Below, in pieces: positions 16,291 through 35,537 of a stretch of 36,792 nt of DNA. The DNA comes from Desulfobulbus sp. Its GTDB lineage: Bacteria > Desulfobacterota > Desulfobulbia > Desulfobulbales > Desulfobulbaceae. The DNA is taken from contig JAQUEZ010000048.1 of the NCBI GenBank assembly GCA_028684915.1, positions 1 to 36,792 on the forward strand, in the 5' to 3' direction. Position 1 is the stretch's first letter. Every line of letters starts with the position of its first letter. A program made the translations under genes and the position numbers. Under the pieces are notes generated by a model. The model ran no database searches and had not been told where the DNA came from. It was given only the letters and a program-made list of their open reading frames with translations.

Positions 16291-16295
16291 GGCAA

Positions 16296-17807: not shown

Positions 17808-18217
17808 TAAGAAAGGTTCTATCCTGGCGACTATCAAATACATTGGACACCAGATTCTGCGTTGAGGCTTTGAAAGAGGCTCTCTTTAAATACGGTGCAC
17901 CCGAGATCTTCAACACCGATCAGGGGTGCCAGTTCACCAGCGAGGCCTTCACCTCAGTCCTTAAGACTTGGAACGTCAAAATCAGCATGGATGGCAAAGG
18001 CCGGTTCAAGGACAACATTTTTATCGAGCGACTCTGGCGCACACTGAAATACGAAAGAATCTACCTGAAGTCCTACGAAACAGGAACTGAGCTTTCCGGG
18101 GACCTGACTTCCTGGTTCAACTGGTATAACCAAAAAAGAAAGCATTCGTCACTTGACAAGCAGACTCCAAATGAGGCTTATTCGAAGCGGCTGGAACTAT
18201 TGAGCAAGGCTGCCTAA
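17808..18217 (+). pseudogene. IS3-family transposase (OrfB) C-terminal remnant
   Basis: Only the C-terminal part of an rve-type (DDE integrase core) IS3-family transposase survives. Homology begins near 17808 (RKVLSWRLSNTLDTRFC) and continues through ALFKYGAPEIFNTDQGCQFTS, with the second catalytic Asp in NTDQG, then DGKGRFKDNIFIERLWRTLKYE with the catalytic Glu, and WFNWYNQKRKHSSLDKQTPNEAY. The N-terminal half, the first Asp, OrfA and the left IS end are all missing. Upstream it abuts the glycan-operon promoter region directly. The IS right end may be near 18285 (CCCCGACCA), but no left inverted repeat remains to confirm it. Confidence 0.85.
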
Positions 18218-18432: not shown

Positions 18433-20625
18433 ATGGAAAATATTAAAGCAAAATGGTGGGTTGTTACCCTGTTTCTCCTCATCGGCAGTGTTATTTATTC
18501 GAATACTTTCAATGTTCCTTTTCATTTTGATGATGAGAACAACATTAAAAGTCCAGCCTTGCGAATAGAATCATTTAACCTTGAAAATGTATCCAGAGTT
18601 TTTTCCAGTGGAACCCTCACTACCAGGCCAATCAGTAATTTTACCTTTGCCCTGAATTACTATTTCGGAGGGTACAGGGTCCAAGGCTATCATCTGGTAA
18701 ATTTACTTGTGCATGTTGGGGCCGGTGTTGCACTCTATTTTTTATTCTTGGTAACCCTTAACTTAGATGTCAATAAACAGAAGTATCGAAATACTTCCCT
18801 TATTTCACTACTGGCTGCGCTCCTGTGGCTAGTCCATCCCCTGGGGACACAATCGGTCACGTATATTGTTCAGCGGATGAACAGCCTGTCGGCATTATTT
18901 TATATCCTTTCCATGTTTTGTTATGCGCAGGGCCGAATCCGAAAAATATCAGCCGGTGACATGCAATCCGCCACAAAGGGGTGGGCTTGGTTTACCGCTT
19001 GCGGGTGCGCAGGTTTCCTTGCGGTTGGCTCTAAAGAAATTGCCGCAACCTTGCCTTTCTTTATTTTTCTGTATGAATGGTTTTTTTTTCAGGATGGGCA
19101 GTGGAACTGGTTAGGGAAAAAGCTGTTCTGGCTGGTCGGCATTTTTCTCCTTTTTTTGACAATTGCTATTTTTTATACAGATGGTCATTTAATTGATCGG
19201 ATATTCGGTAATAATTGTAGCGGGCGTGATTTTACTACTATCGAGAGGGTACTTACCCAATTCCGGGTGGTTATTTATTACATCACTCTGGTTTTTTACC
19301 CCGCCCCTAGTCGGTTGGCGCTTGACTACGACTTTCCTGTTTCCACCTCGCTCCTTTTGCCGTTGACTACCTTGTATTCTCTGGTTGGTATTCTCGCCTT
19401 GCTGGTGTTTGCGCTGATCCTGTTTCGTCGTGAACGGCTGTTGTCTTTCTGCATTCTCTGGTTTTTCGGTAATCTTGTTATTGAATCGTCGGTTATTTGT
19501 TTGGAGATTATTTTTGAACATCGGACCTACCTGCCGTCCATGTTCCTTATCCTGTTTGTCGTTGCTCTTGTGTGCAGATTTTCGCGGGGGCGCATGATTT
19601 CGATAGTTTCTCTGGTGCTTGTCATTGGTCTCTTCGCCTATTGGGCCCATGAACGGAATAAAGTTTGGCGAACAGCCCGTGCACTTTGGGCTGATTCTGT
19701 GTGCAAATATCCTGATAAAGCAAGGACACATGTGAATCTCGGACGTACGTTTGTTGAGGAAGAAAATTGGCCCTCTGCGGAACAAGAATTAAGAAAGGGG
19801 CTTTTGCTCGATCCCGGGGCGGAAATTGGTCACAATAACTTAGCTGCTCTCCTGCTGCGTCAGGGGAGGGTAGGTGAAGCCGAATTGCATTATCAGGAGG
19901 CCGTGCGCATCAAACCAGATTATGTTTTGGCTCGAGTAGGGTTTGGGGGAATTTTGCGAGATCGAGGACTGTATTTAGGCGCTGCGGACCAGTTTCGTAA
20001 GGCTTTTAATGCCGTGCCTGAAGACGTCGTGGTCAATAAAAATCTTGGCAACGCCTTGTTGCGCGCAGGCAAACCAATGGAAGCTTTACCTTACCTCCGT
20101 ACTGCCGCTGCAGGGGCATCCAAGGATATGGAAATTTTGCTTGATATTGGTGAGGCTTTAACCCGCCTCGATAAGTCAGGTGAGGCGATTGAGACCTACA
20201 GAAAAATTTTACGGCAGGATAGGTCGCAGGGCTCAGCCCATTATCAGCTGGCAATACTCCTAAAAGAAAAAGGGCAGATACAGGAGGCGCTGTCCCATTA
20301 TCGGGAAGCGGATCGGCTTTTGCGCTACCCCACGGATCTTAAATATGACTATGCAAACCTTCTGTTCAGGTCAGGTCACCTTGCCGAAGCAGATAATGAA
20401 TATTTGCAGTTCCTGGCCGTGGCGCCAACGTTGGCTATGGCGCATAACAACAGGGGGCTAGTTCTTGTCAATCAGGGAAAGTTAGAGGAGGCCGTGCGGG
20501 AGTTCCAAGCCGCTCTGAAGATTGAGCCTTCCTTTGTGCTTGCCGCCAATAATTTAAGGTTGGCAACCGAACAGTTACAGCAAGCTGCTCAGAGTGGTGC
20601 TCCGAAGGAGCCTTCTACCCCTTGA
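18433..20625 (+). CDS. TMTC-like membrane protein with TPR tail (putative protein O-glycosyltransferase)
   Basis: A 730-aa protein. Residues 1 to about 410 contain many hydrophobic helices (roughly nine or ten membrane segments). The first extracytoplasmic loop has the acidic motif FHFDDENNI, then RPISNFTFALNYYFGGYRVQGYHLVNLLVH, the pattern of the TMTC/DUF1736-type protein O-mannosyltransferase family (GT-C fold). From about residue 429 eight or so TPR repeats follow (ARTHVNLGRTFVEEENWPSAEQELRKG, AHNNRGLVLVNQGKLEEAVREFQAAL). The TPRs would lie on the periplasmic side and bind the protein acceptor. Its place beside pilA suggests a pilin or secreted pilus protein as target; this is inference. 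Confidence 0.82.
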   Translation: MENIKAKWWVVTLFLLIGSVIYSNTFNVPFHFDDENNIKSPALRIESFNLENVSRVFSSGTLTTRPISNFTFALNYYFGGYRVQGYHLVNLLVHVGAGVALYFLFLVTLNLDVNKQKYRNTSLISLLAALLWLVHPLGTQSVTYIVQRMNSLSALFYILSMFCYAQGRIRKISAGDMQSATKGWAWFTACGCAGFLAVGSKEIAATLPFFIFLYEWFFFQDGQWNWLGKKLFWLVGIFLLFLTIAIFYTDGHLIDRIFGNNCSGRDFTTIERVLTQFRVVIYYITLVFYPAPSRLALDYDFPVSTSLLLPLTTLYSLVGILALLVFALILFRRERLLSFCILWFFGNLVIESSVICLEIIFEHRTYLPSMFLILFVVALVCRFSRGRMISIVSLVLVIGLFAYWAHERNKVWRTARALWADSVCKYPDKARTHVNLGRTFVEEENWPSAEQELRKGLLLDPGAEIGHNNLAALLLRQGRVGEAELHYQEAVRIKPDYVLARVGFGGILRDRGLYLGAADQFRKAFNAVPEDVVVNKNLGNALLRAGKPMEALPYLRTAAAGASKDMEILLDIGEALTRLDKSGEAIETYRKILRQDRSQGSAHYQLAILLKEKGQIQEALSHYREADRLLRYPTDLKYDYANLLFRSGHLAEADNEYLQFLAVAPTLAMAHNNRGLVLVNQGKLEEAVREFQAALKIEPSFVLAANNLRLATEQLQQAAQSGAPKEPSTP

Positions 20626-20707: not shown

Positions 20708-21568
20708 TTAATTTTTCTTTGTTTGCGGCGTGACAAGTTTCGAGGTTGTGTATACCCTGCCATTTTCCATAATGTAAAATTCACCTCCATACGGGTCTGG
20801 GGGTATTTTTGTGATTATGGCACTATCGATCAGGTCCTGAAGTTTGGTTGGTTTTTTATTGAAACGTCTTTTGTATTCCTGAATTTTGTATTCGAGAAAG
20901 CCAATGCGTTTCAGCGCGTCAAGACGTTTCGTAAAAAAAATGCGCATTGCCGGGTCGCTGGTTTCTTTCAGTGTTTCCTCAAGAAAGATAACCGCTGCAT
21001 AAATTTTTCCGGCATAAAGGTCCATGCGGGCGGCCAATGTGGTGAAATAGTTGGGCGCTCCCGGCATGTGTGCAGCTATTTGCAGGTGCTTGCCGGCGGT
21101 ATCGGGGTCGTTTAGATAATAGAAGTAATTATACCACAAAAAAAAATGCGGTCGATAATCATCAGTGAGTAGCTGAGCTGCTTTTTCCAAAAGAACATTT
21201 GTTTCTCGAACCATGCCCGCATCACTGGGCAGCGTCATCTGTGCGAGCACGTACGGGTCGAGAAATCGAGGGTCGAGGTTGGTGCATTGTTTTAAAGTGC
21301 GGTAGATCGCTTCCCATTCCTCCTTAGTGGTGGGGGTATCGCTAATAATTTTCTGTCCCAGATAGGTAAGTGCCTTAAGCATCAGGTGGTCGGATGCTAT
21401 TCCGGAGTATTCAAGCGTCATTGCTTGAGCAAGGGGAGCGGGAAGGTCAGCAAGGAAGCTCAACGTTTCCGCGCCTTTTTCTTCGTGCAGGGTGTACAAG
21501 GAGGTAACGCAATAGGAACTTACTGCCACCATTATAAAAAAAAGGAAAGTATTACGTGCTTTGCTCAT
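20708..21568 (-). CDS. Membrane-anchored TPR-like protein with pseudopilin-like tail
   Basis: A 286-aa protein with one N-terminal membrane anchor (TFLFFIMVAVSSYCVTSLYTL). An alpha-helical, TPR-like middle follows (WEAIYRTLKQCTNLDPRFLDPYVLAQMTL, FLWYNYFYYLNDPDTAGKHLQIAA). The C-terminal 45 residues (KKPTKLQDLIDSAIITKI, PPDPYGGEFYIMENGRVYTTSKL) resemble the end of GspG-type major pseudopilins, where the PPDPYGG loop binds calcium. Its start overlaps the permease stop by 4 bp (ATGA), so it is the last gene of the ABC operon downstream of pilA. It may link the ABC exporter to the pilus; the function is not established. Confidence 0.75.
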   Translation of the reverse strand: MSKARNTFLFFIMVAVSSYCVTSLYTLHEEKGAETLSFLADLPAPLAQAMTLEYSGIASDHLMLKALTYLGQKIISDTPTTKEEWEAIYRTLKQCTNLDPRFLDPYVLAQMTLPSDAGMVRETNVLLEKAAQLLTDDYRPHFFLWYNYFYYLNDPDTAGKHLQIAAHMPGAPNYFTTLAARMDLYAGKIYAAVIFLEETLKETSDPAMRIFFTKRLDALKRIGFLEYKIQEYKRRFNKKPTKLQDLIDSAIITKIPPDPYGGEFYIMENGRVYTTSKLVTPQTKKN

Positions 21569-22380
21569 GGCAGGTCGCGACGGCGGAGAAAGAAGGCTGC
21601 CAGTATCAACATCAAAGTGCTATAAGCCACGCCGTAGACGACAAGAATCCAGGTTTCCTGGAGGGAGATAGGCAGGCTGTGCGCTGCCTGTTGTTTCAGG
21701 TCAAAGGCAGCCAGATTGGGAAAAGCGTAGAGAGCAAAGCGGGCGGTCAGTTCGGTTGTCAGGGCAATTTCCACGCCTTTGACTTCTAAGCTGATAAAGC
21801 GAACTACGTCTTCAACACTGTGACCGATGATGTAGGTGCTCATGGTTAGCAGGGTTGCAAGGAAGGAACTGGTAGTGACGCTGCACCAAAGAAACACCGC
21901 GCTGTTGAGGACCTGAATACCTAAAAAGGCCAAACAGGAGGAAATCAGGATTGGTAGCGCGGAAAAATGAGCAAAAACATGCGCTGGGTAGATGAACGAA
22001 GCCAGTAGAACCGCCAATAAGGTGGCTGCGGTCAGAAGCGCCATGATGATACCAGTGAGCAAAGCCAACCCCAAAAATTTGCCAATGATGTACTGGTTCC
22101 TTGAAATATTTCGCGACAAAAGAGTGTAGATGGTGCGCTTTTCGATATCTCCGGCGAGCAGATTGATGGAGAGGAAAAAGGGAACAAGCAACCCGCCGAT
22201 GCTAACTGCGGAGAGGCAGATATCGAGAAGGATTTTGAGTGTATCGCGCATGAACAATCCGCTGATAAGCACGCCAAACAGAATCAGCAACAGGGACACA
22301 ATCAACACGCCGTACAGAATTCTTTGTCGCAGCCCCTCTTTTAGGGTGATAATGGCCAATGGCCAGGTGACCTGCATCAT
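21565..22380 (-). CDS. ABC-2 type transporter permease
   Basis: A 271-aa integral membrane protein with about six membrane segments. The N-terminal WPLAIITLKEGLRQRILYGVLIVSLLLILFGVL is typical of the ABC-2 permease family. A short loop, LAGDIEKRTIYTLLSRNISRNQYIIGKFLGLALL, matches the conserved coupling region. It overlaps the ATPase gene by 4 bp at its start (ATGATG) and the TPR-like gene by 4 bp at its end, so the three make one transport complex. The substrate is unknown; ABC genes next to pilA in Geobacter-type bacteria have been linked to pilus production. Confidence 0.88.
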   Translation of the reverse strand: MMQVTWPLAIITLKEGLRQRILYGVLIVSLLLILFGVLISGLFMRDTLKILLDICLSAVSIGGLLVPFFLSINLLAGDIEKRTIYTLLSRNISRNQYIIGKFLGLALLTGIIMALLTAATLLAVLLASFIYPAHVFAHFSALPILISSCLAFLGIQVLNSAVFLWCSVTTSSFLATLLTMSTYIIGHSVEDVVRFISLEVKGVEIALTTELTARFALYAFPNLAAFDLKQQAAHSLPISLQETWILVVYGVAYSTLMLILAAFFLRRRDLP

Positions 22381-23141
22381 GGTTCTTGCCTCTGTACAGT
22401 GTCGAGAAATAAGGCTTCAAGGCGTGTTTTTCCGTTTTCGGAAACTAGGGGAGGCTTATGTTCGGATTTATCGAGTGGTGTACTGATAATGGTAACCAAA
22501 TTTCCTTGGTGCATGATGCCGATACGATCACAAATGCGTTCAACATCGGTGAGGATATGTGAGCAAAATAGGATGGTGCTTCCTTTGTCCTGATATTCAT
22601 GAATGATATCAATGACTAGCTGGCGGCCAAGGGGATCCAAGCCAGACATCGGCTCATCAAGGATGAGGATTTCGGGGGCAAGAAGAATGGAATAGGCCAA
22701 GGCGGCCCGTTGGGTCATCCCCTTGGAAAAACGTTTAATCGGTATTTGTGCCACCTCTGTCAATCCAACTCGTTTCAGCACTTCTCGGATCCGGGTTGTG
22801 GCTTCCTGGTTGCCTAACCCACCACACCTGCAACCAAAATAAAGGTGCTCGTTCACTGAAAGATTGGGATAGAGGCTGGGGTGTTCGGGGAGATACCCGA
22901 TACGCGTTCGGTTGGAGATTGCGCTGGCAGGGTTCCCTGCAATCAATGCAGCACCGCTGTCAGGGTGAATAAACCCCATGAGGATTTTAAGGATAGAGGA
23001 TTTTCCAGCTCCATTGAGACCAATTATGCCGAAAACTTCATTATGTCTTACATTGAAGTTAATATTATGGATAGCTTGCTTTCTGCGGCGACGTAGCAAA
23101 TTGATCGGATACGATTTGAAAATATGGTTACATTGGATCAT
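22377..23141 (-). CDS. ABC transporter ATP-binding protein
   Basis: A 254-aa ATPase with Walker A GIIGLNGAGKSSILKIL, the Q-loop region IGYLPEHPSLYPNLSVNEHL, signature RFSKGMTQRAALAYSIL, Walker B ILILDEPMSGLDP and the H-loop LFCSHIL. The YLPE...LY pattern is that of ABC-2 type (NatA/CcmA-like) exporters. It pairs with the permease immediately downstream. No Shine-Dalgarno is visible: the start codon lies 3 bases after the T-run of the pilA-C terminator hairpin. Expression may therefore depend on terminator read-through and be far below that of pilA. Confidence 0.93.
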   Translation of the reverse strand: MIQCNHIFKSYPINLLRRRRKQAIHNINFNVRHNEVFGIIGLNGAGKSSILKILMGFIHPDSGAALIAGNPASAISNRTRIGYLPEHPSLYPNLSVNEHLYFGCRCGGLGNQEATTRIREVLKRVGLTEVAQIPIKRFSKGMTQRAALAYSILLAPEILILDEPMSGLDPLGRQLVIDIIHEYQDKGSTILFCSHILTDVERICDRIGIMHQGNLVTIISTPLDKSEHKPPLVSENGKTRLEALFLDTVQRQEP

Positions 23142-23144
23142 GGG

Positions 23145-23184
23145 AAATAAAAACGACTCTTCCTGCTGGATTGTAGGAAGAGTC
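23145..23184 (-). terminator. Rho-independent terminator after pilA-C
   Basis: A perfect 10-bp stem GACTCTTCCT (23155-23164) / AGGAAGAGTC (23175-23184) with a 10-base loop. On the minus strand it is followed by GTTTTTATTT (23154-23145). It lies 26 bp after the pilA-C stop and its T-run ends 3 bp before the ABC ATPase start codon. It would end the abundant pilin transcript and attenuate the ABC operon. Confidence 0.8.
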
Positions 23185-23210
23185 TTTTGTGTTTGAAAAC
23201 TATTGCTGAA

Positions 23211-23576
23211 TCACAATGTGTTCCAGGACGAAAAAGCGGCCTCATTGGTACCTGTGAATGAGGTAGGGGCAGCCGTAGAACTAATATCCAAAAAGTGCAT
23301 TTTATTGGAATCTGAGGTCATCCCATAGGCTTGTCCCGCCTTTTTTTGATTTGCCTGATCATGGTAAGCGATCGCTGCAAATGAAGTTGATACACTTGTT
23401 CCATAAATATTGACATTTGTAGACGGTGTGAATGTAATATTTGTGGCGCCAGAAACATTGCTAGCTGAAACTGTAACGTCTGCTCCCGATACACCTGAAA
23501 AGGCTGCGGCGAAAATATTTTGTGCTGAGAAGGTGCAAAGCAAAAGACCTGTAGCCATGCATAGGATTTTTTTCAT
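23211..23576 (-). CDS. PilA-C-like secreted pilin partner
   Basis: A 121-aa protein with a Sec signal peptide (MKKILCMATGLLLCTFSAQNIFAAA, cleavage near residue 24) and a mature beta-rich domain of about 97 aa rich in Ser/Thr/Ala (GVSGADVTVSASNVSGATNITFTPSTNVNIYG, YHDQANQKKAGQAYGMTSDSNKMHFLD). It resembles the separate PilA-C subunit of Geobacter-type bacteria, where PilA-N and PilA-C together make up what is one pilin elsewhere. The gene starts 45 bp after pilA-N stops, with GAGGTG upstream of the ATG, and is followed by a terminator. The many Ser/Thr make it a candidate target for the TMTC-like enzyme (inference). Confidence 0.82.
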   Translation of the reverse strand: MKKILCMATGLLLCTFSAQNIFAAAFSGVSGADVTVSASNVSGATNITFTPSTNVNIYGTSVSTSFAAIAYHDQANQKKAGQAYGMTSDSNKMHFLDISSTAAPTSFTGTNEAAFSSWNTL

Positions 23577-23620
23577 AATTCACCTCGTTGTGATGAAAAT
23601 AGTAAAATATTTTTTCGTCC

Positions 23621-23854
23621 TTAATTCGGATACTGCTGAAAATCTGCATGAAATGCAGCCATTTCCGTCGACAGATTGCGCACGTCACTCTGCGCCGCCT
23701 TGTTCTGTGCCCGCACGCGATAAGCAGCAAACTGCGGAATGGCGATGGCTGCCAGAATACCGATGATGGCCACGACGATCATTAGCTCGATGAGGGTGAA
23801 ACCTTTCTGACCGTTTTTCTTGCTGAGTAACTGTTTGTTGAAAAATCGATTCAT
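23621..23854 (-). CDS. pilA: Short type IVa pilin PilA-N
   Basis: A 77-aa prepilin: an 18-aa leader (MNRFFNKQLLSKKNGQKG) then a mature 59-residue protein starting FTLIELMIVVAIIGILAAIA, with the Glu5 needed for methylation and assembly. It lacks the usual C-terminal globular domain and so matches the short Geobacter-type PilA-N. Mature aromatics are F1, F24, Y27, F50, F54 and Y57 (6 of 59). The ATG at 23854 has GGAGG 5 bases upstream; a longer frame to 23899 is not preferred. Partner PilA-C is encoded directly downstream. A sigma-54 promoter lies 66 bp upstream. Confidence 0.93.
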   Translation of the reverse strand: MNRFFNKQLLSKKNGQKGFTLIELMIVVAIIGILAAIAIPQFAAYRVRAQNKAAQSDVRNLSTEMAAFHADFQQYPN

Positions 23855-23919: not shown

Positions 23920-23935
23920 AGCATTTACAATGCCA
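23920..23935 (-). promoter_or_regulatory. Sigma-54 promoter of pilA
   Basis: On the minus strand TGGCATTGTAAATGCT has the -24 GG and -12 GC separated by exactly 10 bases, close to the consensus TGGCAC-N5-TTGC. Transcription would start near 23910, giving a 5' leader of about 55 nt. PilR-type sigma-54 activators drive pilA in Pseudomonas and Geobacter, and such an activator is encoded just across the divergent region. Confidence 0.75.
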
Positions 23936-24249: not shown

Positions 24250-25827
24250 GTGAAACAGATTAAACTTTCCCTCTCTCTTAACTTGCTGCTGCTGACCGGC
24301 ATAGGCATGGCAGTCACCAACGCTGTCGTTGGACTCTTCTGGGCAGGCGATGTGTTGCAGCGCGAGGCAGGCCACCTGCGACAGAAACTGTCCCTTGCTG
24401 TTCAGGTCGCTGCCTCTTCCCCCGCCTTTTTGCCTTCTCCGCTGTCCGATTTTCTTGCCCAAGAACCCGGCGCCTGCCTGTTCTGGTGCAGCACTTATTA
24501 TGCAGGAGAACGTTCCGATGATCTCTGTCGGCAAGGGCTGGCCGCAGCCGTGAACAACGCCGTGTCCATTGGCACGCTGACCACCGCGGCCATGCCGTCG
24601 TTGAGCGAACCGGCGGCTTTCCGCTATCTGCGGGTAGTGAATCAGTTTTCTACGGAAGCGGGAGTGTCAACGGCCGCCGCTGCCGTGCCGTTCACCTCGG
24701 TGCTGCGTTCGCTCTGGGAGAGGGAACGTATCATTGCTGTTTACCTGCTGTTCAATGCCCTGATACTGACGGCGTTGGCTTTCTTCCGTTTGCTGAAACG
24801 GTACGTGCTGCCGGTTGACCGGATGGTCCAGGCGGCAGAGACCTACAGCGGCGAGGGGTTTCAGGCCGCATTGTTCGATCGGTCCACCAACGAACTGGGG
24901 CAACTGGCCATTTCTATCCAGCTCATGGTACGTCGGATTGAAGCGGACAAAGACAACCTGAATGCCACGGTACGCGAGTTAGCGGAAAAGAACGACCTGC
25001 TGCAGAAGAATCAGCAGGAGATGATCCGCACGGAAAAATTGGCGGCGGCCGGTCGTATGGCAGCAGGGCTTGCCCACGAGATCGGCAATCCGCTGGGAGT
25101 GGTGCAGGGGTATGTGCAGATGATGGGCATGGTTGATTGCCGCGAAGAGGAACGGATCGACTATGCCGGCAAGGCTCTGGATGAACTGCAACGGATGGAT
25201 CGGCTGATTCGTCGTCTGCTGGATCACACCCACGCCTACGCAGGGAAGGCGGCGCCTTGTAATATCGGACAACTGCTCGTCTTTGTGGTCCAGTCGCTGG
25301 AGATCCAGGCGTTGTGCGCTGGGATTAGGTTTACAGTGTGTTGTGAACCTGCGGAGCAGGTTGTGTGGCTCGAAGAGGATACCTTGCGTCAGGTTCTTGT
25401 CAATGCGCTGCTCAACGCAGTTGATGCGGTCAGGTCACGTCACGGAAACAGTGGCGGCTGTATTTATCTTAATGCCACGATGCAGGCTAAGGGCTCGGCC
25501 GCTCAGTGCGGACAGCGTTTGTTGGAGATTTGCATCCGTGATAATGGTATTGGCATTCCTCCGGAATTGTTCGATACGGTGTTTGAACCGTTTTTTACGA
25601 CAAAAGAACCTGGCAAGGGTACCGGCCTGGGCTTATCGGTATCGTTAGCCCTGATCAAATCCATGGGCGGTCGCATGAGCTTGCACAGTGAACCGGACCA
25701 GGGTACCACCCTGTGTATTTTTCTTCCTCTCGCGGAAGACGACACTGCCGAACATCTGGAAATAATGGCTATGAACGAGATAGCCGATACTCAGCAGGGA
25801 GCGGCCGCATGCACAAAAGCGTGTTGA
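24250..25827 (+). CDS. Membrane sensor histidine kinase, PilS/NtrB-like
   Basis: A kinase of about 525 aa from the GTG at 24250 (VKQIKLSLSLNLLLLTGIG). TM1 is at residues of about 7-30, then a periplasmic region of about 130 aa, TM2 near 165-185 (YLLFNALILTALAFFRLL), and a HAMP-like linker. The HisKA box AAGRMAAGLAHEIGNPLG has the phospho-accepting His at 276. The ATPase domain has the N-box LVNALLNAVDAV, DNGIGIPPELF, FEPFFTTK and GTGLGLSV. An open frame runs back to 23941, but that stretch holds the pilA promoter and enhancer sites and has no protein-like pattern. It overlaps pilR by 19 bp. It is called PilS-like from context; canonical PilS has six membrane helices, this one only two. Confidence 0.88.
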   Translation: MKQIKLSLSLNLLLLTGIGMAVTNAVVGLFWAGDVLQREAGHLRQKLSLAVQVAASSPAFLPSPLSDFLAQEPGACLFWCSTYYAGERSDDLCRQGLAAAVNNAVSIGTLTTAAMPSLSEPAAFRYLRVVNQFSTEAGVSTAAAAVPFTSVLRSLWERERIIAVYLLFNALILTALAFFRLLKRYVLPVDRMVQAAETYSGEGFQAALFDRSTNELGQLAISIQLMVRRIEADKDNLNATVRELAEKNDLLQKNQQEMIRTEKLAAAGRMAAGLAHEIGNPLGVVQGYVQMMGMVDCREEERIDYAGKALDELQRMDRLIRRLLDHTHAYAGKAAPCNIGQLLVFVVQSLEIQALCAGIRFTVCCEPAEQVVWLEEDTLRQVLVNALLNAVDAVRSRHGNSGGCIYLNATMQAKGSAAQCGQRLLEICIRDNGIGIPPELFDTVFEPFFTTKEPGKGTGLGLSVSLALIKSMGGRMSLHSEPDQGTTLCIFLPLAEDDTAEHLEIMAMNEIADTQQGAAACTKAC

Positions 25828-27224
25828 TTATCGATGACGAAGCCAATATGCGGCACATGCTCAGCGCGCTGCTCACCAAACAGGGCTATAGGGCAGATGG
25901 TGCAGGTAATGGGGCGGAGGGGTTGGCAGCTATCAAGTGCCAGCAGTACGATTTCATCCTGTGCGATCTGAAAATGCCGGTGATGGATGGTATGAGCTTT
26001 CTCCAGCAGATGCAGGCGCAGCAGTGCACCGCCACCATCATCATGATGTCTGCCTACGGCACCGTGGACCAAGCCATTGAAACGATGAAAAGAGGCGCCT
26101 ACGATTACATCTCCAAACCGTTCAAGCTGGATGAGGTCCTGCTGGTATTGCGGAAGGCGGAGGAACGCGAACGGCTTCGGCAAGAAAATAAGGAACTTCG
26201 GGCACATCTGGACGCAATCGACGGTCTGCGTTCCTTTGGCGGCATGGTGGGCAAGAGCAAGGCGATGCAGGAGGTGTTTTACCTATCCGAGAAGGTTGCG
26301 CCATATGCCACCACGGTGTTGATTACCGGCGAGTCGGGGACCGGCAAGGAACTGGTGGCCCGGGGCATTCACCTGGCCGGCAAGGGTAAGGCCGCACCGT
26401 TTGTGGCTGTGAACTGCGGCGGCATCCCTGCAGGTCTGCTTGAAAGCGAGTTTTTTGGGTATGTCCGTGGGGCCTTCACCGGCGCGGATCGTGAAAAAAA
26501 AGGCCTGTTTGAGGCAGCAGAAGGCGGTACGCTGTTTCTTGATGAAATTAGCGAATTACCGATCGAACTACAGGTGAACCTGTTGCGGGTACTGCAGGAG
26601 CGGGAGGTGCGGCGGTTGGGCGCGGTCCGTGGACAGAAGGTGGATGTGCGTGTGCTGGCGGCAACTAACAAGGATCTCGGCGATCTGGTCGAGCAGGGGA
26701 CCTTCCGCGAAGACCTATTTTTCCGCTTGCATGTGCTGAACGTGGGGCTGCCCCCGCTTCGACGGCACGCAGAAGATATCCCCTTATTGTGCCATGCCTT
26801 GCTCGATAAGTTGAGTCTGCGTTTGGGGCTTGAGGTGCCGGGCATTGCTCCGTCGACCATGGAACTGTTGATGCGCCATGATTGGCCGGGGAATGTGCGC
26901 GAGTTGGAAAATGTGCTGGAGCGGGCGCTCATCCTCACGGATAAAAAGATTATCCTCCCCGAACACCTGCCAGGGCACTTTGGTGCCAAGGCCGAAAGCC
27001 GTCGCATTGATGATGTCCTGGGTACCTACTCCCTGAAAGAGGCCAAGGTGATCATGGAAAAACGGCTGATCGGCAGAGCAATGGAGGCCACTGGTGGCAA
27101 CAAAAGTAAGGCGGCACAGTTGCTGGAGCTCAGCTACCCCGCCTTGTTGAGTAAATTGAAGGAGTATGAGATTGGGATTGCTCGCGAAAAAACATCGGAC
27201 AAAACCTTTGAAGAGCAAGCTTAG
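25809..27224 (+). CDS. pilR: Sigma-54-dependent response regulator, PilR-like
   Basis: A 471-aa NtrC-family activator. The receiver domain (residues 1 to about 120) has phospho-acceptor Asp53 in [10 protein letters not shown], acidic DDE at 9-11, and the Lys of SKPFK. The AAA+ domain has Walker A GESGTGKE (about 174), the sigma-54-contacting GAFTGA loop (about 221), Walker [14 protein letters not shown], and the R-finger region REDLFFRL. The C-terminal Fis-type helix-turn-helix ends the protein ([27 protein letters not shown]). ATG 25809 has GGAG upstream; a frame open from 25713 overlaps the kinase gene further and is rejected. It probably activates the divergent pilA promoter. Confidence 0.93.
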
Positions 27225-27460: not shown

Positions 27461-27808
27461 TCACAGCGGCCGTTTATCGCGCTGTTGTAGTGTGGGTGAC
27501 TGTTCTTTATAGGCGTTCAGGCCCTGGGTACACTCAAAAAAAACGTTTTGTTTATTTCGATCAACAACGTAACGCAAAGATACGGTTTGCCCAGGCTTAA
27601 GCGTTGATGCTAATTCCGGTCGGGAAGGAAGGTAATAATTTCCGTCGTTCAATTGCACAACATGATTTGGGCGTATCTGGATGATGGTTCCGGACGCCGT
27701 TTTTGTTGAGATGGAAACAGCTGCATTTAAAGGTGTTGTCCATGCAGAAACAAGGAAAAGACTACAAAAAATTAGGAGGGAAAAGGTTGCTTTATTCAAT
27801 GCATACAT
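27461..27808 (-). CDS. Small secreted protein, last gene of pilY1 operon
   Basis: A 115-aa protein with a hydrophobic signal peptide (ATFSLLIFCSLFLVSAWTTPLNA, cleavage near 29). A short beta-rich mature part follows: ASGTIIQIRPNHVVQLNDGNYYLPS, LKPGQTVSLRYVVDRNKQNVFFECTQG. The GTI..I....V.L.DG..Y pattern is that of small OB/SH3-like barrels, but I do not recognise a named family. The ATG has GAGG six bases upstream. It follows pilY1 by 78 bp and precedes the terminator, so it probably belongs to the pilus-tip operon. The function is unknown. Confidence 0.75.
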   Translation of the reverse strand: MYALNKATFSLLIFCSLFLVSAWTTPLNAAVSISTKTASGTIIQIRPNHVVQLNDGNYYLPSRPELASTLKPGQTVSLRYVVDRNKQNVFFECTQGLNAYKEQSPTLQQRDKRPL

Positions 27809-27886: not shown

Positions 27887-30800
27887 TTAATTTTTCTGTT
27901 GGCTGTTGCTGTCGCGCCAATAATACAGTTCTAGGCCTAACCCAGGTGTGTCGATTTCATACGGGTTATTGATATCCGGACCTGGGCCGATGATGGCTCC
28001 GCCCATACTTGCCATAGCCGCAGCACGCCCATCGCGAAGAACGATAGTAAATCCAGATGGAATACCGTAAATGCCAGTGAATTTTTTGTATCGATCTGTA
28101 ACGTCAATTGTATCTGTATTAGTGGCCGAGTTTAAATCATAGGTGGCACTGCCATCCAGGTAATTCAGAGCATACGAAAACCCATTACCTTGCGGGTTAC
28201 AGGGATCGCTGATGGAGGCCTGATAAGTGGTAAAATACAAAGTCCCGTAATACAAAATGGCCTGGCTTAAAACCTGTTCTCCTTCATGATAGTCATGGGC
28301 GGTGCTACTGCTTGCATCGATAGTAGTCGGATAGGTGACATGGCTGCAGACAGAAGTTTTTCCCTGGTCGGCAAGCACGATGTACCATCCTTTGGCATCG
28401 TTTTCCTTGGTTGCTCCATTTTCTAGCTGCGCTGGATCATCGTAGATGGCATCATCCTTGAGTACCGACCTGAGGTAGCTTTTCATGGTACTGGAAATTT
28501 CAGCCGCTGTGCCGCCGTTGCACAAACCACCCAGCAGGCCCAGATAACAAGAATTGATCACTGTGTCCCGCCCTAGTTCATCACAGGTCAGGTTGAGCAG
28601 GTTTTTTTCCGTATAAGGGGCGGAGGAAACCTGAATCGGCGTTGGCGTTGAACTTGTCGGATTAAGGGTGGCTGAGACCGAGGAATCATCATAGACGGCA
28701 TAGAATCGGTTGCGAATCATCGTGTATTTAGGATGTTCCCGATCGCCGGTGCCGAAAAAGAGTGAGGCCATGGTGTCGGTATGCTCAAAGGTCGTGTCAG
28801 TGAAGGAATAGTTATTTGCCTGGAAGTACCCTTTTGAACCGCCAAAAGAGATGGCTGGCGGATAAAAAGCCTTTCGTCCAACATCACCGGTGTCTGTGCC
28901 GCCAATCCAGCCGCTCCCACTGCTACTGCCAGGGTTGGCTGAAAAAATTTTCTTCACCGTCCAGCCCGCTTTGTCTACCGACCAGTGAGGGGTGGACGTT
29001 GTGCTACTGTTAGTTACGTCAAAGGTAAAGTACGTTTTGAAGAGGTTAGCATACACGTCGACCGAATAAAACGAACGCAGAACATTTTCCTCGTAATCTG
29101 CTTTGACATCTGTTCCCGAGACGTAACGGTAGCTGTCCGTGTCAGTGAGCACGCTGGGGGCGGCAGGAAAGCAGTAGTGCATGGTCGGTAGAGTTTGCTG
29201 GAAGCCGCTAGTGGTGGCTGTCGCTCCATACATAGCCGAGAAGGGGAGAAGCTGGTCTTTACTGGAATCACCGTTGACGTATTTAGCGCTCGATGGGTTG
29301 TCGATATCGACAACGAAAACACCTCGTCCATAGAGGTTATTACCGGGGTTATAGGCGTCATAAACACCGTTATTGTTGATATCTTGACCGGCGGTATTCT
29401 TCGACCATTCTTTGCTATCTATGGTGGAGTCGCTCTTGTACGGTGTTCCGTTGGAATCCTCATCGTTAAAGGGTTCCGGGAAATTGTCTTCATCTGGGTC
29501 GTATCCGCCGGTGAAGATCGCCACATCCGTATAAGATCTCTCGCCGTTGGTGGTGATGCCCGTTGGTAGGCTCGCGACCTTGACCTCAGACCAGGACTGC
29601 GCTATCTCTGCATTCGTGTAGGACCATTGAACCGTCCATTTTGTTGGATCTTGGTCGGCAATGTTGAGATTCCAAAAGTATTTTCCGCCACGTCGTTCTC
29701 CAAAAAATAGATATTTCGGATTTTTATCTCTGCGGTAAAGAGTGACGAGTCCATCAACAGTATCATACATGTTGTTGGCCTGAACGAACTGGAGTTTTGT
29801 GAGAATATCTTCAGGGATAAAGGCAAAAACTTCACGCCCATTAGTGTCGTCGAGCACATGGAGCATGCCATCGTTGCTTCCAACTGCAATGAGTCGTTTT
29901 TGCAGCGGAAGCGATGTCTTGGATGTGTCAAAATAATCAACAACTACCGGACGGGAGTGAATGATTGGGCCCATGATCCACTCGCGTACTGCCAGTGGCG
30001 CACCTGTGGTGGCATCGGCATTGTAGGTGTAGCCGTGGATGAAGTTGATCAATTTGTCGCGGGTGGCATCATCTGCCACACCGAGCATATCCTTGGTGAT
30101 ATGTGTTCTGTCGAATTTGACCATCTCTTTGTTGCCATCACTATCACTATCGGTCCACGTATAGATTGGGCGACTCCAGAAGGTACCGGCAGAAAAATAC
30201 CCTTGAACATCTTCAAGCAATACTTCGCCCGCACCGTCTTCCTTGATATCGGCTGCTCCATAACTGTCCGTATCGTTAGGATCAAGATCATCCCCCCAAA
30301 TGGCCGCCGTATTATCAAGGAAATTACCGCTCGAATCTATTGCTTCATTATTCTTGCCGTCATAGACCATAAAGAGGTTTGGGCGATCTGTGGTGCCGTC
30401 CCCCATTTTGAATTTTTTAACGTTTCCGGTCCAATAGGTGCTGTCCATGGGGAGAAATAAGCCCATATACAAATCGTCACCACTTTGGATCTTGTTGACG
30501 GCATCAACCGAAACAACCGGAGCTGTGAAAGAAACAGCTTCGGACATTAAGAGGGCTAAGGAGTAGAAGGCTGAGACTAATTGTTCTTTGTTATACGCAA
30601 TGATGTATTGCCCACCCGATTCTTTTGCCGCATTCTCGAGGAGTGGTTGTTTGGCTCCAAAAGCTATGTGATGCGTGGTCACATTGACGTAGGAGTTCGC
30701 AGGATCGGCAACCTCGGTTTTATCCATCCAACTGTGGGTATAGATCCAGTGGGCGACGTCATCGTAAAAATTGGGGTTGGTCGGAGGTTGATACGGGTCG

Positions 30801-32431
30801 GAAGTCCACCCATCGCCATCTTCATCGGAGAAGGTCTTGCCGCTAATTCTTTGATTATCGGTATCCAACGAGGGAAACCCGTCGGTCATGGAAATAATAT
30901 AGTTTTTTCTGCAGAGTAACTTCTCCAGCACGTTTTTTCGACCGAAGTAGCCATCGTCCCAGACATCTTGCAGGGCTTCCATGAGTGGTGTCCCGCCCTC
31001 AGCTATTACATTCTCAATTTGCTGAACAATGGCGGCCCGGTTGGCATCGTCAGTTTCAGTAGGATTGAGCGCTTGAAGGACTTGTGCCCCATCACCGTTT
31101 TTAAAAGAGGCAAAACCCCAGTTCATTTTGCCGCGGAATTTGTCCACCACGTAGGTCATGGCGTCCTTGGCCACATCCAGGCGACTTTGCATGAGATAAG
31201 AGCCGCCCGATGTTGCGTCATAATTGACCCGTATTTTATCTATGGTATATCCCTGGCCAGTTACATTATTGTCTGACTGGAGTTTGATTACAGCAGTGTC
31301 GCCAGTAATCGTTGGTGTCCATCCATCTCCGTTGGTTGGCTTGTTGTCGTTGTCATACTGAGCAACCTTATTGCCTGATGCATCGTAGACTGTTACAGAA
31401 TCGTATTGAAATTTTGACTGGTTGCTGTCGCCTTCTACATCAAAGAAGGAAAAATGGATTTGCAGTTGTTGGGCTCCTGCTGAAACGATTGTTTGTGCTG
31501 TATCCGTTTCTTTAACCCTATCCGCATAATTCCCAGAGCCATTTGGATAATCAAGGGAGTAGGAGAGTTGAGACCAGGATAATGTGGATGAAAGGGGAAA
31601 TTTTTCGAATGGCCAAGCCGCATCTCCTTTGCTGGCTCCCTGGGGTGTAGGATTGAAGGTTGTATAGTGGAGGTTATACATTGCCTGCATATTGGCCCAA
31701 TTTCCTGTGATAAAAAAATAAACATCTTTATCGCCGGTCTCGACCGGGTCGAGAGTAGTTCCGACCCCCTCATACCCACTGAAATAGTACCCCGGAGCAT
31801 TCAGCAAACCTGCAAAACCGTTATCAACGCTCGTGCCGTCGTAAAGAGTAGCCGTATCATGTTCTTTTATATTGAGACCGAGAGGGAGCTGTTTTCCGTC
31901 AAAGAGGATGTAACCAGATGAATCGACAGTGATTCGCCTATTCCCCGTTCCGTCATCGGATAGGTTGCCGTTGTCGTCAATCAGGGTGTGTGTATCAACC
32001 AAATCATCACTGTGCCAGAGATAATCTGGGTCGGCAGCATCTCCTGAAAAAGCGACCTTCTCATTATTTATAGTTGCTATGGTTGCTCCAATCTCCCCTT
32101 TCCAAAGGAAAATCTTATGGCGCTCTTCGTGATTCTTGTAAAAAGTAGCACTGTTATTGATTGTGTCGTAAATGTAATCATTGTAACTGCCACTGTCGTT
32201 GAGGGTAAACAGATAGTCAAACATTGCACCGTAATCAATGGTATGTTGGTATACACCGAAATTCATTGATCCGGAGCTGTCCATCAATACATAGCAATTT
32301 TGTTTGGTGTTAATGGCGTAAATGTCAGTGTCCTTTGCGAAAGCCGGTGACGCTGGGCACAGTTGCAGGGCCGCTAAAAAAAGCGAAATCCCGGCTGTCA
32401 GCCTTTGGTATGTGGTGGTCGCTGTTTTCAT
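27887..32431 (-). CDS. pilY1: PilY1-type pilus tip/biogenesis protein
   Basis: A 1514-aa secreted protein, long for the family (about 1,160 aa in Pseudomonas). The signal peptide ends near FAKDTD (residue 33). A von Willebrand A-type domain follows with an intact MIDAS DSSGS at residue 51 and the later YIISMTDGFPSLD. The C-terminal half has the PilY beta-propeller (LIAVGSNDGMLHVLDDTNGREVFAFIPEDIL, YLFFGERRGGKYFWNLNI) with Asp/Asn-rich calcium-binding-like stretches (DPDEDNFPEPFNDEDSNG, DINNNGVYDAYNPGNN). An insertion of about 250 aa splits the vWA domain with DGTGNRR and lectin-like beta regions. It acts at the pilus tip in adhesion and extension. It lies in the fimT-pilW-pilV-pilX-pilY1 operon; GGAG is 8 bases before the ATG. 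Confidence 0.93.
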   Translation of the reverse strand: MKTATTTYQRLTAGISLFLAALQLCPASPAFAKDTDIYAINTKQNCYVLMDSSGSMNFGVYQHTIDYGAMFDYLFTLNDSGSYNDYIYDTINNSATFYKNHEERHKIFLWKGEIGATIATINNEKVAFSGDAADPDYLWHSDDLVDTHTLIDDNGNLSDDGTGNRRITVDSSGYILFDGKQLPLGLNIKEHDTATLYDGTSVDNGFAGLLNAPGYYFSGYEGVGTTLDPVETGDKDVYFFITGNWANMQAMYNLHYTTFNPTPQGASKGDAAWPFEKFPLSSTLSWSQLSYSLDYPNGSGNYADRVKETDTAQTIVSAGAQQLQIHFSFFDVEGDSNQSKFQYDSVTVYDASGNKVAQYDNDNKPTNGDGWTPTITGDTAVIKLQSDNNVTGQGYTIDKIRVNYDATSGGSYLMQSRLDVAKDAMTYVVDKFRGKMNWGFASFKNGDGAQVLQALNPTETDDANRAAIVQQIENVIAEGGTPLMEALQDVWDDGYFGRKNVLEKLLCRKNYIISMTDGFPSLDTDNQRISGKTFSDEDGDGWTSDPYQPPTNPNFYDDVAHWIYTHSWMDKTEVADPANSYVNVTTHHIAFGAKQPLLENAAKESGGQYIIAYNKEQLVSAFYSLALLMSEAVSFTAPVVSVDAVNKIQSGDDLYMGLFLPMDSTYWTGNVKKFKMGDGTTDRPNLFMVYDGKNNEAIDSSGNFLDNTAAIWGDDLDPNDTDSYGAADIKEDGAGEVLLEDVQGYFSAGTFWSRPIYTWTDSDSDGNKEMVKFDRTHITKDMLGVADDATRDKLINFIHGYTYNADATTGAPLAVREWIMGPIIHSRPVVVDYFDTSKTSLPLQKRLIAVGSNDGMLHVLDDTNGREVFAFIPEDILTKLQFVQANNMYDTVDGLVTLYRRDKNPKYLFFGERRGGKYFWNLNIADQDPTKWTVQWSYTNAEIAQSWSEVKVASLPTGITTNGERSYTDVAIFTGGYDPDEDNFPEPFNDEDSNGTPYKSDSTIDSKEWSKNTAGQDINNNGVYDAYNPGNNLYGRGVFVVDIDNPSSAKYVNGDSSKDQLLPFSAMYGATATTSGFQQTLPTMHYCFPAAPSVLTDTDSYRYVSGTDVKADYEENVLRSFYSVDVYANLFKTYFTFDVTNSSTTSTPHWSVDKAGWTVKKIFSANPGSSSGSGWIGGTDTGDVGRKAFYPPAISFGGSKGYFQANNYSFTDTTFEHTDTMASLFFGTGDREHPKYTMIRNRFYAVYDDSSVSATLNPTSSTPTPIQVSSAPYTEKNLLNLTCDELGRDTVINSCYLGLLGGLCNGGTAAEISSTMKSYLRSVLKDDAIYDDPAQLENGATKENDAKGWYIVLADQGKTSVCSHVTYPTTIDASSSTAHDYHEGEQVLSQAILYYGTLYFTTYQASISDPCNPQGNGFSYALNYLDGSATYDLNSATNTDTIDVTDRYKKFTGIYGIPSGFTIVLRDGRAAAMASMGGAIIGPGPDINNPYEIDTPGLGLELYYWRDSNSQQKN

Positions 32432-32543: not shown

Positions 32544-33185
32544 TTAGAGAGCCATCTTTACCCCAACTTTGTTGCCGCCTAATTCGACAATAGTCATGGT
32601 GCGGGCTGTATTCCCTTGTATGCGGAATTTATATCCTGAAAAGGAAGTGGCGTCGTATCCCATGGGAGGATTGCTTGGATGGAGGTACGTGACCAGATAA
32701 CGGTAGTCGAGATCGTTATGTGCAGGCTGTTTTTTTTCAAGGGCCTCTGCAGTAAGCCACTTATCGTCATTATCTTCCACTGGCCAGAGATTGCGCCATG
32801 GCCAGTATCGCGGGTCGCTTTTTCTTAGGTCAACATTTGATTCATCCTTATCGCTTGCCGCGTCAGTGTTATCGCTTCCTGGATCAAAAGCAGCCAAGCT
32901 ATCAGGCGCAAGTATGATCCCGTAAAGTGTAGGATCGGAAATTTGGTAAAACGTGCGGCGATTGAATCCGAGATTAGCGGCCTCGGTATTTGCACCACCT
33001 TCGGTAACATTGAATTGCATCTCAACTTGCTGCAGTCCACCTGCCACATTCAGTTCAAAATTGGAGGTCTGTAAGGCCCAGGCCCCGAAGAGAGAGAGCA
33101 TAAGCAGGATAACTAGCGAGAGGACCAAGACAAATCCGGATTCTACTGTGTTATCATTTGAAATCGGTCGCAAAAAAAATTTCAT
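32544..33185 (-). CDS. pilX: PilX-like minor pilin
   Basis: A 213-aa protein with an N-terminal PilX-type anchor: SNDNTVESGFVLVLSLVILLMLSLFGAWALQTSNFELNVAGG. The ESGFVLV site replaces the usual GFTLIE, as in PilX/GspK-like proteins. The QTSNFELNVAGGLQ continuation is characteristic of the PilX N-terminal domain. The rest is a poorly conserved globular part ending in a beta-rich tail (MTIVELGGNKVGVKM). It sits between pilV and pilY1 and probably helps form the tip complex that carries PilY1. Confidence 0.88.
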   Translation of the reverse strand: MKFFLRPISNDNTVESGFVLVLSLVILLMLSLFGAWALQTSNFELNVAGGLQQVEMQFNVTEGGANTEAANLGFNRRTFYQISDPTLYGIILAPDSLAAFDPGSDNTDAASDKDESNVDLRKSDPRYWPWRNLWPVEDNDDKWLTAEALEKKQPAHNDLDYRYLVTYLHPSNPPMGYDATSFSGYKFRIQGNTARTMTIVELGGNKVGVKMAL

Positions 33186-33213: not shown

Positions 33214-33858
33214 TTATAGTGGCGTATTTTTATACTTGAGCGTGGTCGTTAATATCTTGTTCGGCCCCATGAGAGAATCCCAGTACATAAAGAGCCAAAT
33301 GGTTTTCCCTATCGATTTGGAATTCTCCGTGACATTATCGAGCACAGCCCATGCGAGTGTATATTGAATGCCGGATTTATCGACCACTGTGCCGTTAGTC
33401 GCTGTTGCCGGTTTGATGATAATCTCTTTCATTTGGGCAAAGTCACTTTCCTTGAAAGTATTGAGTTTGCCGGCGTCGATAAGATTTTGCAGTTGTTGGG
33501 CCGTGGTAATCGTCGTTAATTCAGCTCTTGTGGCGAGTGTTTTATTAAGAATATTGTCATCAAAGTTCAGGTCTTTCAGCGTTTCCATAAGAGCCAAGGT
33601 CACCGTATTGGCTTCGGTGCGGTTCATGGACGAAGAACTGGCTCGGATGGCCTGCGTTTGCATGACCATGACTGTCAAAATACCAACGGTGAGAATGGCA
33701 ATAGCGATCATTGCTTCAATAAGAGTCGAGCCTCGTTGATTTTGGGGCAATTTTTTATTATCGCAAAAAGTCTCGACAGCGACAGTCCAATTTCCGTACT
33801 TTTCTCTTTCCATGATGCTCAACCTGTTGCTTTCTGATTTTTCGCGAATTTGTCCCAT
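33214..33858 (-). CDS. pilV: PilV-like minor pilin (type IV pilus modification protein)
   Basis: A prepilin-like protein with the methylation motif QRGSTLIEAMIAIAILTVGILTVMVMQ and MNRTEANTVTLALMETLKDLNFDD after it, the PilV signature. Its leader is unusually long. The start is uncertain: ATG 33858 (AGG four bases upstream, 15 bp after the pilW stop) gives 214 aa; 33813 would give a shorter leader and 33894 would overlap pilW. It lies between pilW and pilX. Confidence 0.85.
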   Translation of the reverse strand: MGQIREKSESNRLSIMEREKYGNWTVAVETFCDNKKLPQNQRGSTLIEAMIAIAILTVGILTVMVMQTQAIRASSSSMNRTEANTVTLALMETLKDLNFDDNILNKTLATRAELTTITTAQQLQNLIDAGKLNTFKESDFAQMKEIIIKPATATNGTVVDKSGIQYTLAWAVLDNVTENSKSIGKTIWLFMYWDSLMGPNKILTTTLKYKNTPL

Positions 33859-33872
33859 ATTACCTAGTGCTA

Positions 33873-34652
33873 TTAGAGCCCTATATTGCGGCATTGAATG
33901 GTAGTGATGATCATTCGGCGACGGAAATGATCCTGTGGCGGTGTCCAGATTGCACCGGAACCTGTGGTGTAGGTAGCGGTGTGGAGGTAGTTCTCGGCCG
34001 GAGCTGAGGCCCGCGCGAGCATTGAGACCTGTACGGCTCGAATATCGTTGCGTTGTAGTGTGGATGGGTTAAGAGTAGGGGTGTTGTCACCTTTGAGTAG
34101 ATAACTAAACTCCAATGCTTCTATGTTGTCGGCTAATGGCTGCGCAATAATTGAATTACCGACCTGACGGCCAAGCGATGCAGTGCCACTCCAGTTCGTT
34201 CCACCATTGTCGACAATACCGTCATTGTTGCTATCTCCAGTAAGCGTGTAGGTGATATCTTCATCAACTCCCTTGGTGTCGATTTTCCCATTGGCAAGAT
34301 ATGGTTTCTTGCTATCGTCACAAGTGTTGCCTGTTGCACCATTATTACATCCTATATCACGGGTAAATTGGAATTTTGCCTTGGTGGCTGTTTCGATTTT
34401 AGCTTTTGCTTTTTCAGTAGGGTCACAGCCCGCAGTCCGAATTTCAAGGGTGAGCACGGTCAATGCCCCCCGTAAATTCTGTTGGATTCCGGCTATATCG
34501 TCATGTGTGGCGTACCGCCTTGTTTGTGCTGTGAAAACAGAGATAACGGTTGCCATCGTCAATCCTGAGATAAGCAAAGATATCATCAATTCGACGAGGG
34601 TAAAGCCTTTGTTCTCCATGTAAACAGATTGTGTCTTCATTGTACTGAACAT
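33873..34652 (-). CDS. pilW: PilW-like minor pilin
   Basis: A 259-aa prepilin with a 16-aa leader (MFSTMKTQSVYMENKG) and the processed motif FTLVELMISLLISGLTMATVISVFTAQTRRYATHDD, followed by IQQNLRGALTVLTLEIRTAGCDP, the PilW pattern. A Cys/Asn/Asp-rich middle (RDIGCNNGATGNTCDD, DSNNDGIVDNGG) may bind calcium. The start has GATGAGG 7 bases upstream. It is second in the minor-pilin operon and a likely part of the priming complex for pilus assembly. Confidence 0.9.
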   Translation of the reverse strand: MFSTMKTQSVYMENKGFTLVELMISLLISGLTMATVISVFTAQTRRYATHDDIAGIQQNLRGALTVLTLEIRTAGCDPTEKAKAKIETATKAKFQFTRDIGCNNGATGNTCDDSKKPYLANGKIDTKGVDEDITYTLTGDSNNDGIVDNGGTNWSGTASLGRQVGNSIIAQPLADNIEALEFSYLLKGDNTPTLNPSTLQRNDIRAVQVSMLARASAPAENYLHTATYTTGSGAIWTPPQDHFRRRMIITTIQCRNIGL

Positions 34653-34667: not shown

Positions 34668-35246
34668 TCAATTCAGGTTAATCCGACCAGCAGTTGAAAC
34701 GGTAGCACTTCGTTTGCGTACGACATTTCCTGATGAGTCAACAGCACGGAGACCGACGGTTCCCATCATTAAACTGTTGTCGGATTTTCCTGGAATGCCT
34801 TTTGGGCTAAAAACTAAAGTGTTTAATGGAAAGGATATACCGTCTGCCTCATTGGTTTCTCCTGAGTCGGAATAATCACCGTCATTATTAAGGTCGACAG
34901 GGCCGAATTCGATGTTCTTTGGTAATTCCGTTGGTTGAATAAGGAAAATTTCGTTCAGGTCTTTTTGCCCATTGCCAGTGTCTGTACCGCCGCCGTTGTC
35001 GAGGAATACTTCAAACGTATTCTTTGTATCATCAAAATTCACCGCAACAAAAATGCCTCTTTTAATAGCTTCCGCTTTAGTGAGCATTATGGCTGAAAAA
35101 ATATCCCGACTTGCACTTTTCAAGCGCATGTTTGGTACAATATTGAGAAGAGTGGTTGTTCCGATACCGGCAATGATTCCGAGGATCGCGAGAACTATCA
35201 TTAACTCGATTAAGGTGAACCCTGTTCTGTCGTTTTTAACATTCAT
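34668..35246 (-). CDS. fimT: FimT/GspH-like minor pilin
   Basis: A prepilin of about 192 aa with a short leader and GFTLIELMIVLAILGIIAGIGTTTLLNIVPNMRLKSASRDIFSAIMLTKAEAIKRG, the GspH/FimT signature. The ending SATVSTAGRINLN is the usual GspH C-terminus. A DLNNDGDYSDSGETNEADG stretch resembles calcium loops. The ATG at 35246 (MNVKNDRTG) is chosen because it gives a normal 8-residue leader; an open frame to 35420 adds 58 residues with no prepilin sense. It is the first gene of the minor-pilin operon; its promoter is not obvious. Confidence 0.88.
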   Translation of the reverse strand: MNVKNDRTGFTLIELMIVLAILGIIAGIGTTTLLNIVPNMRLKSASRDIFSAIMLTKAEAIKRGIFVAVNFDDTKNTFEVFLDNGGGTDTGNGQKDLNEIFLIQPTELPKNIEFGPVDLNNDGDYSDSGETNEADGISFPLNTLVFSPKGIPGKSDNSLMMGTVGLRAVDSSGNVVRKRSATVSTAGRINLN

Positions 35247-35537
35247 AAGTTCTCTTACTGCGGTTTTATGGAAAATATAGAAAATAGGTTCGGAGCTTTT
35301 GGGTGGCCCAATGACTCTGTAAAATTGGGTCAAAGAAATCAAGGCGCTTTCATCTATAACAAGACCGCTATCAAGAGTGCTCGCTGAAAGACGATTTGCG
35401 TCCAAAAACACCTGGTTCATTGCAGAGCGGTACTTCCACGAAAGGGGAAAGGTATGTGAGATGCTGCAATGATTAATACTCGGTTTCCGGCTCGGCTTCG
35501 CTTATCCGTTTCTCCTGATTGTAAAAAGTAAGCAATG

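Follow-up and report, generated by a model that had tools for sequence, protein, structure and literature searches.

A split PilA-N/PilA-C pilin in a Desulfobulbales-like host and evidence for a swappable pilin cassette beside pilS/pilR

The 36,792-nucleotide stretch of Desulfobulbus sp. DNA analysed here (contig JAQUEZ010000048.1; the whole stretch is called the window, and L-, G- and P-numbers label the compared loci, genomes and relatives) carries two adjacent genes, pilA-N and pilA-C, which constitute a real split pilin, like PilA-N/PilA-C of Geobacter but in a different order. According to our analysis the pair very probably forms, as two proteins, the major type IVa pilus subunit and moves together with an ATP-binding cassette (ABC) transporter module, the whole cassette having taken the place of a one-gene pilin cassette next to pilS/pilR. 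The advance over split pilins described before lies in the evidence for a pilin cassette that can be swapped; in the literature searched we found no report of one, key papers on the topic being outside the searched collection.

Translation of pilA-N bears out a preliminary description of this DNA, made from its letters alone, in giving an 18-residue leader and a 59-residue mature pilin without a globular domain. The leader ends in KG and the mature protein (FTLIELM...QQYPN) is stem throughout; a mature length of about 60 residues, a class III leader and the lack of a head are the marks of a Geobacter-type split pilin. The protein carries an N_methyl domain (Pfam, E 2.1e-11, 43 bits), of the 7994 candidates scored in its search 7982 qualify as relatives at E 0.001, and among solved structures it is closest to the 'geopilin domain 1' chains of Geobacter. 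The separate secreted partner described earlier also stands, as a gene directly downstream for a protein of 121 residues with a Sec-like N-terminus by inspection, and only the spacing changes, its start lying 44 bp and not 45 bp past the pilA-N stop. Shine-Dalgarno-like sequences (GGAGG and GAGGTG, by inspection) precede the two genes. PilA-C as a single query found no Pfam family, no plasmid match and no relative in genome contigs, with a best PDB match at E 0.22; single-sequence searches being insufficient, its relationships were established through profile and fold comparison. Its predicted fold and its sequence profile both match the PilA-C chains of solved Geobacter filaments, and the ranking of the profile matches is the same whether or not the class II profile includes the Geobacter-type rows L010 and L013; a pilin was absent among the 50 Foldseek matches listed, and none of eight genomes found with the PilA-N query, whose list was swamped by other pilins, gave a PilA-C match. 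The earlier reading of a Geobacter-type pair forming one pilus subunit is supported by homology, fold, profile and conserved adjacency.

The survey covered the 257 genomes of the order to which G006 belongs. The PilA-C profile matches 16 of them and the PilA-N profile 157 at E <= 1e-14, ordinary pilins included. We analysed 60 regions, which cover all listed matches at E <= 2.8e-28, plus the window and six loci outside the order set. They yield 36 distinct short pilins (mature length 59-66 residues) and 29 distinct full-length ones, a count that leaves out identical copies, pilins of 90 bits or less, the G244 fragment and the other-group loci L012, L018, L064 and L077. At least 27 of the 257 genomes carry a short pilin (G047 is excluded, its copy L164 being cut by a contig end) and 30 a full-length one, and among the regions analysed two of the 27 split-pilin genomes, G261 and G209, hold both. 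A secreted partner adjoins 34 of the 35 complete short pilins (the automated count was 32/36; L132 and L138, dropped by a charge filter, were added, and L164 is cut off), the sole exception being the second copy in L145. This copy (L145 5909-6130, G182) is a short pilin without a partner that stands upstream of a complete PilA-N/PilA-C pair. The partners of L024 and L033 match none of the profiles used. Genes for an ABC ATPase, a permease and a third protein accompany the pilin at 28 of 35 short-pilin loci and at 26 of 29 full-length loci, of which the remaining L152, L167 and L182 reach a contig end. Divergent PilS/PilR genes lie upstream at nine of the 29 full-length loci and at five short ones (the window, L129, L130, L135 and L165; L164 is not counted).

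Geobacter shares with the window the short stem pilin, the secreted head gene directly downstream and the same predicted head fold, and its pili have been solved (6vk9 and 7tgg for G. sulfurreducens, 9egp for G. metallireducens); the window differs in its Desulfobulbales-like host and in a Gln at mature position 32. The Geobacteraceae locus L010 likewise has ABC-type genes downstream of its pilin pair, but in the order permease, third gene, ATPase, whereas the window has ATPase, permease, third gene, and its pilR is co-directional where that of the window is divergent. Class II split pilins of the surveyed order (e.g. L149, L169 and L181) have a PilA-N and a PilA-C homologous to those of the window (hhalign 97%) and follow the gene order of L010. 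Full-length type IVa pilins of the same order (e.g. L027 and L177) share with the window the stem, the downstream ABC module, in some cases the divergent PilS/PilR, and head homology by way of class II, but are encoded by one gene and have 182-205 mature residues.

The evidence for exchange comes from trees that conflict. In the ABC ATPase tree (61 rows, 56 of them different; the bootstrap was not settled) the window groups with G116 (100/96) and next with G133 (99/86), 30 of 31 full-length rows form one separate clade (100/100; L186 stands elsewhere), and the class II split loci group with L010 (100/97). In the PilR tree (31 rows) the window belongs to a clade of eight (100/99), apart from G116 and G133, together with the full-length G043, G048, G006 and G045, the class II split G058, the contig-end fragment G047 and G053, whose pilin was not seen. 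Approximately unbiased (AU) tests on the ATPase data reject the window with G043/G006/G048 (9.3e-46) or with G058 (5.9e-10), and on the PilR data they reject it with G116 and G133 (1.0e-31) and with G116 (2.2e-4). Sequence identities point the same way: the permease is 69% identical to that of G116 and 31% to that of G058, and has no match in G006, G043, G047, G048 or G053 at E 1e-20; PilS, searched in all 257 genomes, is 48-52% identical to its counterparts in G006, G043, G047, G048, G053 and G058, the next by score being 39%, with partial C-terminal matches elsewhere of up to 47%. Pilin labels change 10 times on the PilR tree for three states and six times for split against full-length, with labels given by genome (pilR is on another contig than pilA in G116 and G227 and far from pilA in G133), G053, G072 and L280 unlabelled, and the contig-cut G047 entered as full-length. 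The simplest account of the conflicting trees is that the pilin cassette was exchanged at the pilS-pilA junction. One or several origins of the split are left undecided by the ATPase data, because the AU test does not reject a single clade of all split ATPases (p 0.17). At L277 (G133) the pilin pair and the ABC genes are about 10 kb apart, with a transposase-like open reading frame (ORF) between them by inspection, and in the window a 159-residue ORF with integrase-core domains (17738-18217, rve_3 8.4e-15), probably an insertion-sequence remnant, lies just left of the cassette.

The same conflict may be read in reverse, with pilS/pilR and the genes to their right being foreign and the split cassette native, which we consider unlikely. 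Synteny with G116 does continue left of the cassette, where a small gene 73% identical stands in the matching position, and identity is just 30-43% for the two ABC export genes farther out. What speaks against this reversal is that G053 has close relatives of PilR (75%), PilS (49%), the PilY1-like protein (69%, residues 584-1512) and the cytidylate-kinase-like gene at the far left (72%), which ties the two ends of the window to a single lineage; for all of these but PilS the search covered 25 chosen genomes only. For G053, overall the closest relative, a search for the pilin in the last 1.5 kb before the contig end found none. Named relatives of PilA-N and PilA-C come from Desulfosediminicola (a member of Desulfobulbales), Desulfopila and Desulfobulbaceae.

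Kinship between PilA-C partners and the heads of one-gene pilins was addressed by profile-profile comparison in hhalign. Class I partners scored 97% against class II and 98% against a second class I subset, and class II partners 96% against full-length heads and 93% against L010/L013, which in turn gave 83% with full-length heads and 74% with class I. The direct comparison of class I with full-length heads reached 33% (E 4.5e-4), and the second class I subset 42% with class II and 7% with full-length heads. Twelve controls for class I and class II, shuffled or reversed, stayed at or below 0.25%. These values support, with class II as the link, homology between the PilA-C family and one-gene pilin heads, and they also support, in another order, the pilin gene fission that Shu et al. 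(2016) proposed for Geobacter (PMC5174107), a paper in whose main text 'desulfobulb' is absent. The presence of both states within one order, at loci with the same neighbours, also supports PilA-C as a former pilin head. In a 2018 review Geobacter PilA-C figured as a hypothetical protein whose shared ancestry with pilins was held to be unlikely (PMC6201914), a doubt with which our result contrasts and which would suit a PilA-C that assists the short pilin from the periplasm without being a filament subunit; given the homology to pilin heads and the match in fold and profile to chains of solved filaments, such a helper is improbable.

The stem of the pair is conserved and its head variable, as expected of an outward-facing head: identity to the window is 85% against 47% in L127, 86% against 51% in L128 and 83% against 34% in L129. 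On the 91-kb contig of P0011 PilA-N is 97% identical, but no PilA-C above 56% identity is among the matches listed; head turnover may exceed stem turnover, or a PilA-C was missed by the search.

The preliminary description had also taken the aromatic residues of the short pilin as a hint of conduction. Its count is reproduced (F1, F24, Y27, F50, F54 and Y57, that is 6/59 or 10.2%, with a longest gap of 22 residues), as is the Gln at position 32, but the hint does not survive comparison. In the first 59 mature residues the 36 short pilins have on average 7.0 aromatics (5-9) and the 29 full-length ones 7.1 (6-8; p 0.48). Without L164 the means are 7.0 for 35 complete short pilins and 7.1 (p 0.39), and without seven rows from other sets or cut they are 6.8 and 7.1 (29 vs 29, p 0.08), the p values being descriptive only because the sequences are related. 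Fewer aromatics than the six of the window are found in only one of the 36 short pilins. Over the whole mature protein the means differ (11.9% in short, 7.5% in full-length pilins), because the heads of the latter hold 5.4%. Position 32 is F or Y in all 29 full-length but in 18 of 36 short pilins, 13 of the short ones, the window's included, having Gln. Since full-length stems are equally aromatic, the density in the window is normal for such a stem, and an aromatic content above that of an ordinary pilin stem, which is how this analysis words the criterion for a conductive e-pilin, was not found. As for multihaem cytochromes near the pil genes, which the preliminary description had proposed to look for, the only CXXCH among window ORFs of at least 60 residues is in a 67-residue ORF opposite the PilY1-like gene. 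The inference of conduction is not supported by sequence.

A little less probable still than a helper role of PilA-C is the idea that extracellular electron transfer is served by thin conductive filaments rich in aromatics (e-pili), which PilA-N forms alone, PilA-C being an accessory. An opinion paper holds that PilA alone makes e-pili in Geobacter (PMC9207759), and the density and short gaps given above would agree with it; against it stand the equally aromatic full-length stems, the non-aromatic position 32, the partner adjoining nearly every complete short pilin and the presence of both chains in the solved Geobacter pili according to the structure titles. A 2026 review moreover identifies the 3-nm filaments as B-DNA and describes the Geobacter pilus as equal parts of PilA-N and PilA-C and poorly conductive (PMC12954529).

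By analogy with Geobacter, the class III leader, to be cleaved by prepilin peptidase, would direct the PilA-N stem into the inner membrane, and the PilA-C head would be exported by Sec with an ordinary signal peptide and dock on the exposed half of the stem, 1:1 heterodimers then polymerising into the filament. Two-component control is suggested by the divergent PilS/PilR and the sigma-54-type motif, which in relaxed form occurs in 18 of 63 pilA upstream regions (12/34 short, 6/29 full-length) against 0.27 expected from shuffles. The pair would travel with the ABC ATPase, the permease and the third protein, and in this lineage would have been swapped in for a one-gene pilin cassette; that the ABC module serves pilus-linked export or modification is our guess.

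The surroundings (Table 1) are those of a type IVa major pilin, with PilS/PilR, PilW and FimT/GspH-type genes near the N_methyl-bearing PilA-N; pilB/C/T were not seen in the window. The least probable reading makes the pair a type II secretion system (T2SS) pseudopilin, a possibility the preliminary description had allowed: PilA-N does match GspG models, though below cut-off (TIGR01710 51 bits against 88.85, T2SSG 15.5 against 21), but its closest solved relatives are Geobacter pilins, its neighbours are pilS/pilR and a cluster of PilW-, PilV-, PilX- and FimT-type minor pilins, and Pfam/NCBIfam scans of 26 window proteins brought up no T2SS machinery gene, four glycosyltransferase-like ORFs being outside that scan.

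Table 1. Features of the pilin cassette and its surroundings in the window
Feature	Position	Strand	Remarks
Protein with C-terminal TPR repeats	18433..20625	+	TPR_2 1.3e-29; multi-transmembrane N-terminal part by inspection
Third conserved cassette protein	20708..21568	-	0 Pfam families; conserved by synteny
ABC-2 permease of cassette	21565..22380	-	Pfam ABC2_membrane_2 1.7e-10
ABC transporter ATPase of cassette	22377..23141	-	Pfam ABC_tran 5.1e-31
Terminator-like hairpin, then T-rich stretch	23155..23184	-	separates pilA-C from ABC genes
pilA-C	23211..23576	-	secreted head-domain partner; signal peptide Sec-like by inspection only
pilA-N	23621..23854	-	class III leader and stem pilin; 77-aa prepilin
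Sigma-54-type -24/-12 motif TGGCATTGTAAATGC	23921..23935	-	upstream of pilA-N
pilS sensor kinase	24250..25827	+	HATPase_c 3.3e-23; GTG start inferred from relatives' alignment, ORF opens 23941
pilR sigma-54 response regulator	25809..27224	+	Sigma54_activat 1.3e-67; start inferred, ORF opens 25713
PilY1-like protein	27887..32431	-	inspection and position only; 0 Pfam families
PilX-like minor pilin	32544..33185	-	PilX_N 8.5e-4, below gathering score
PilV-like minor pilin	33214..33894	-	TIGR02523 2.4e-10, below cut-off; N_methyl
PilW minor pilin	33873..34652	-	PilW 2.2e-10
FimT/GspH-type minor pilin	34668..35420	-	GspH 1e-5

The stretch 23135-23215 around the terminator-like hairpin has a folding energy of -17.9 kcal/mol. 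The TPR-repeat gene is syntenic with the cassette in L127-L130; an assignment of the third cassette protein as a TPR protein was dropped, Pfam giving it no support. Between pilR and the PilY1-like gene a small secreted-looking protein (27461-27808) has no Pfam family above cut-off and a 34% relative at the equivalent place in G053. Farther left, 862-17183 is a polysaccharide cluster with glycosyltransferases, a UDP-galactopyranose mutase, a DegT aminotransferase and an ABC exporter with a weak Wzt_C match; its gene 10879-11832, with a GC content of 36.5% against 44% and 53% in the neighbours, was perhaps acquired recently.

In a 2023 review the two-protein pilin is named only for Geobacter species (PMC10191384). 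The order in which we find split pilins is taken to be the group of cable bacteria, whose family is Desulfobulbaceae (PMC6976610), and for these an earlier hypothesis of a conductive PilA is today regarded as unlikely (PMC10580974). When short and full-length pilins are compared, aromatic density loses its value as a criterion, and because several close relatives carry an undivided pilin gene at the corresponding locus, the split form has the look of an exchangeable gene module rather than of a pointer to conducting pili. On balance we are inclined to suggest that the pilA site beside pilS/pilR in Desulfobulbales is a cassette-exchange site, at which recombination substitutes one-gene pilins and at least two split lineages for one another, every type bringing an ABC module of its own, and that the split pilin may be an architecture open to transfer rather than an adaptation to extracellular electron transfer.
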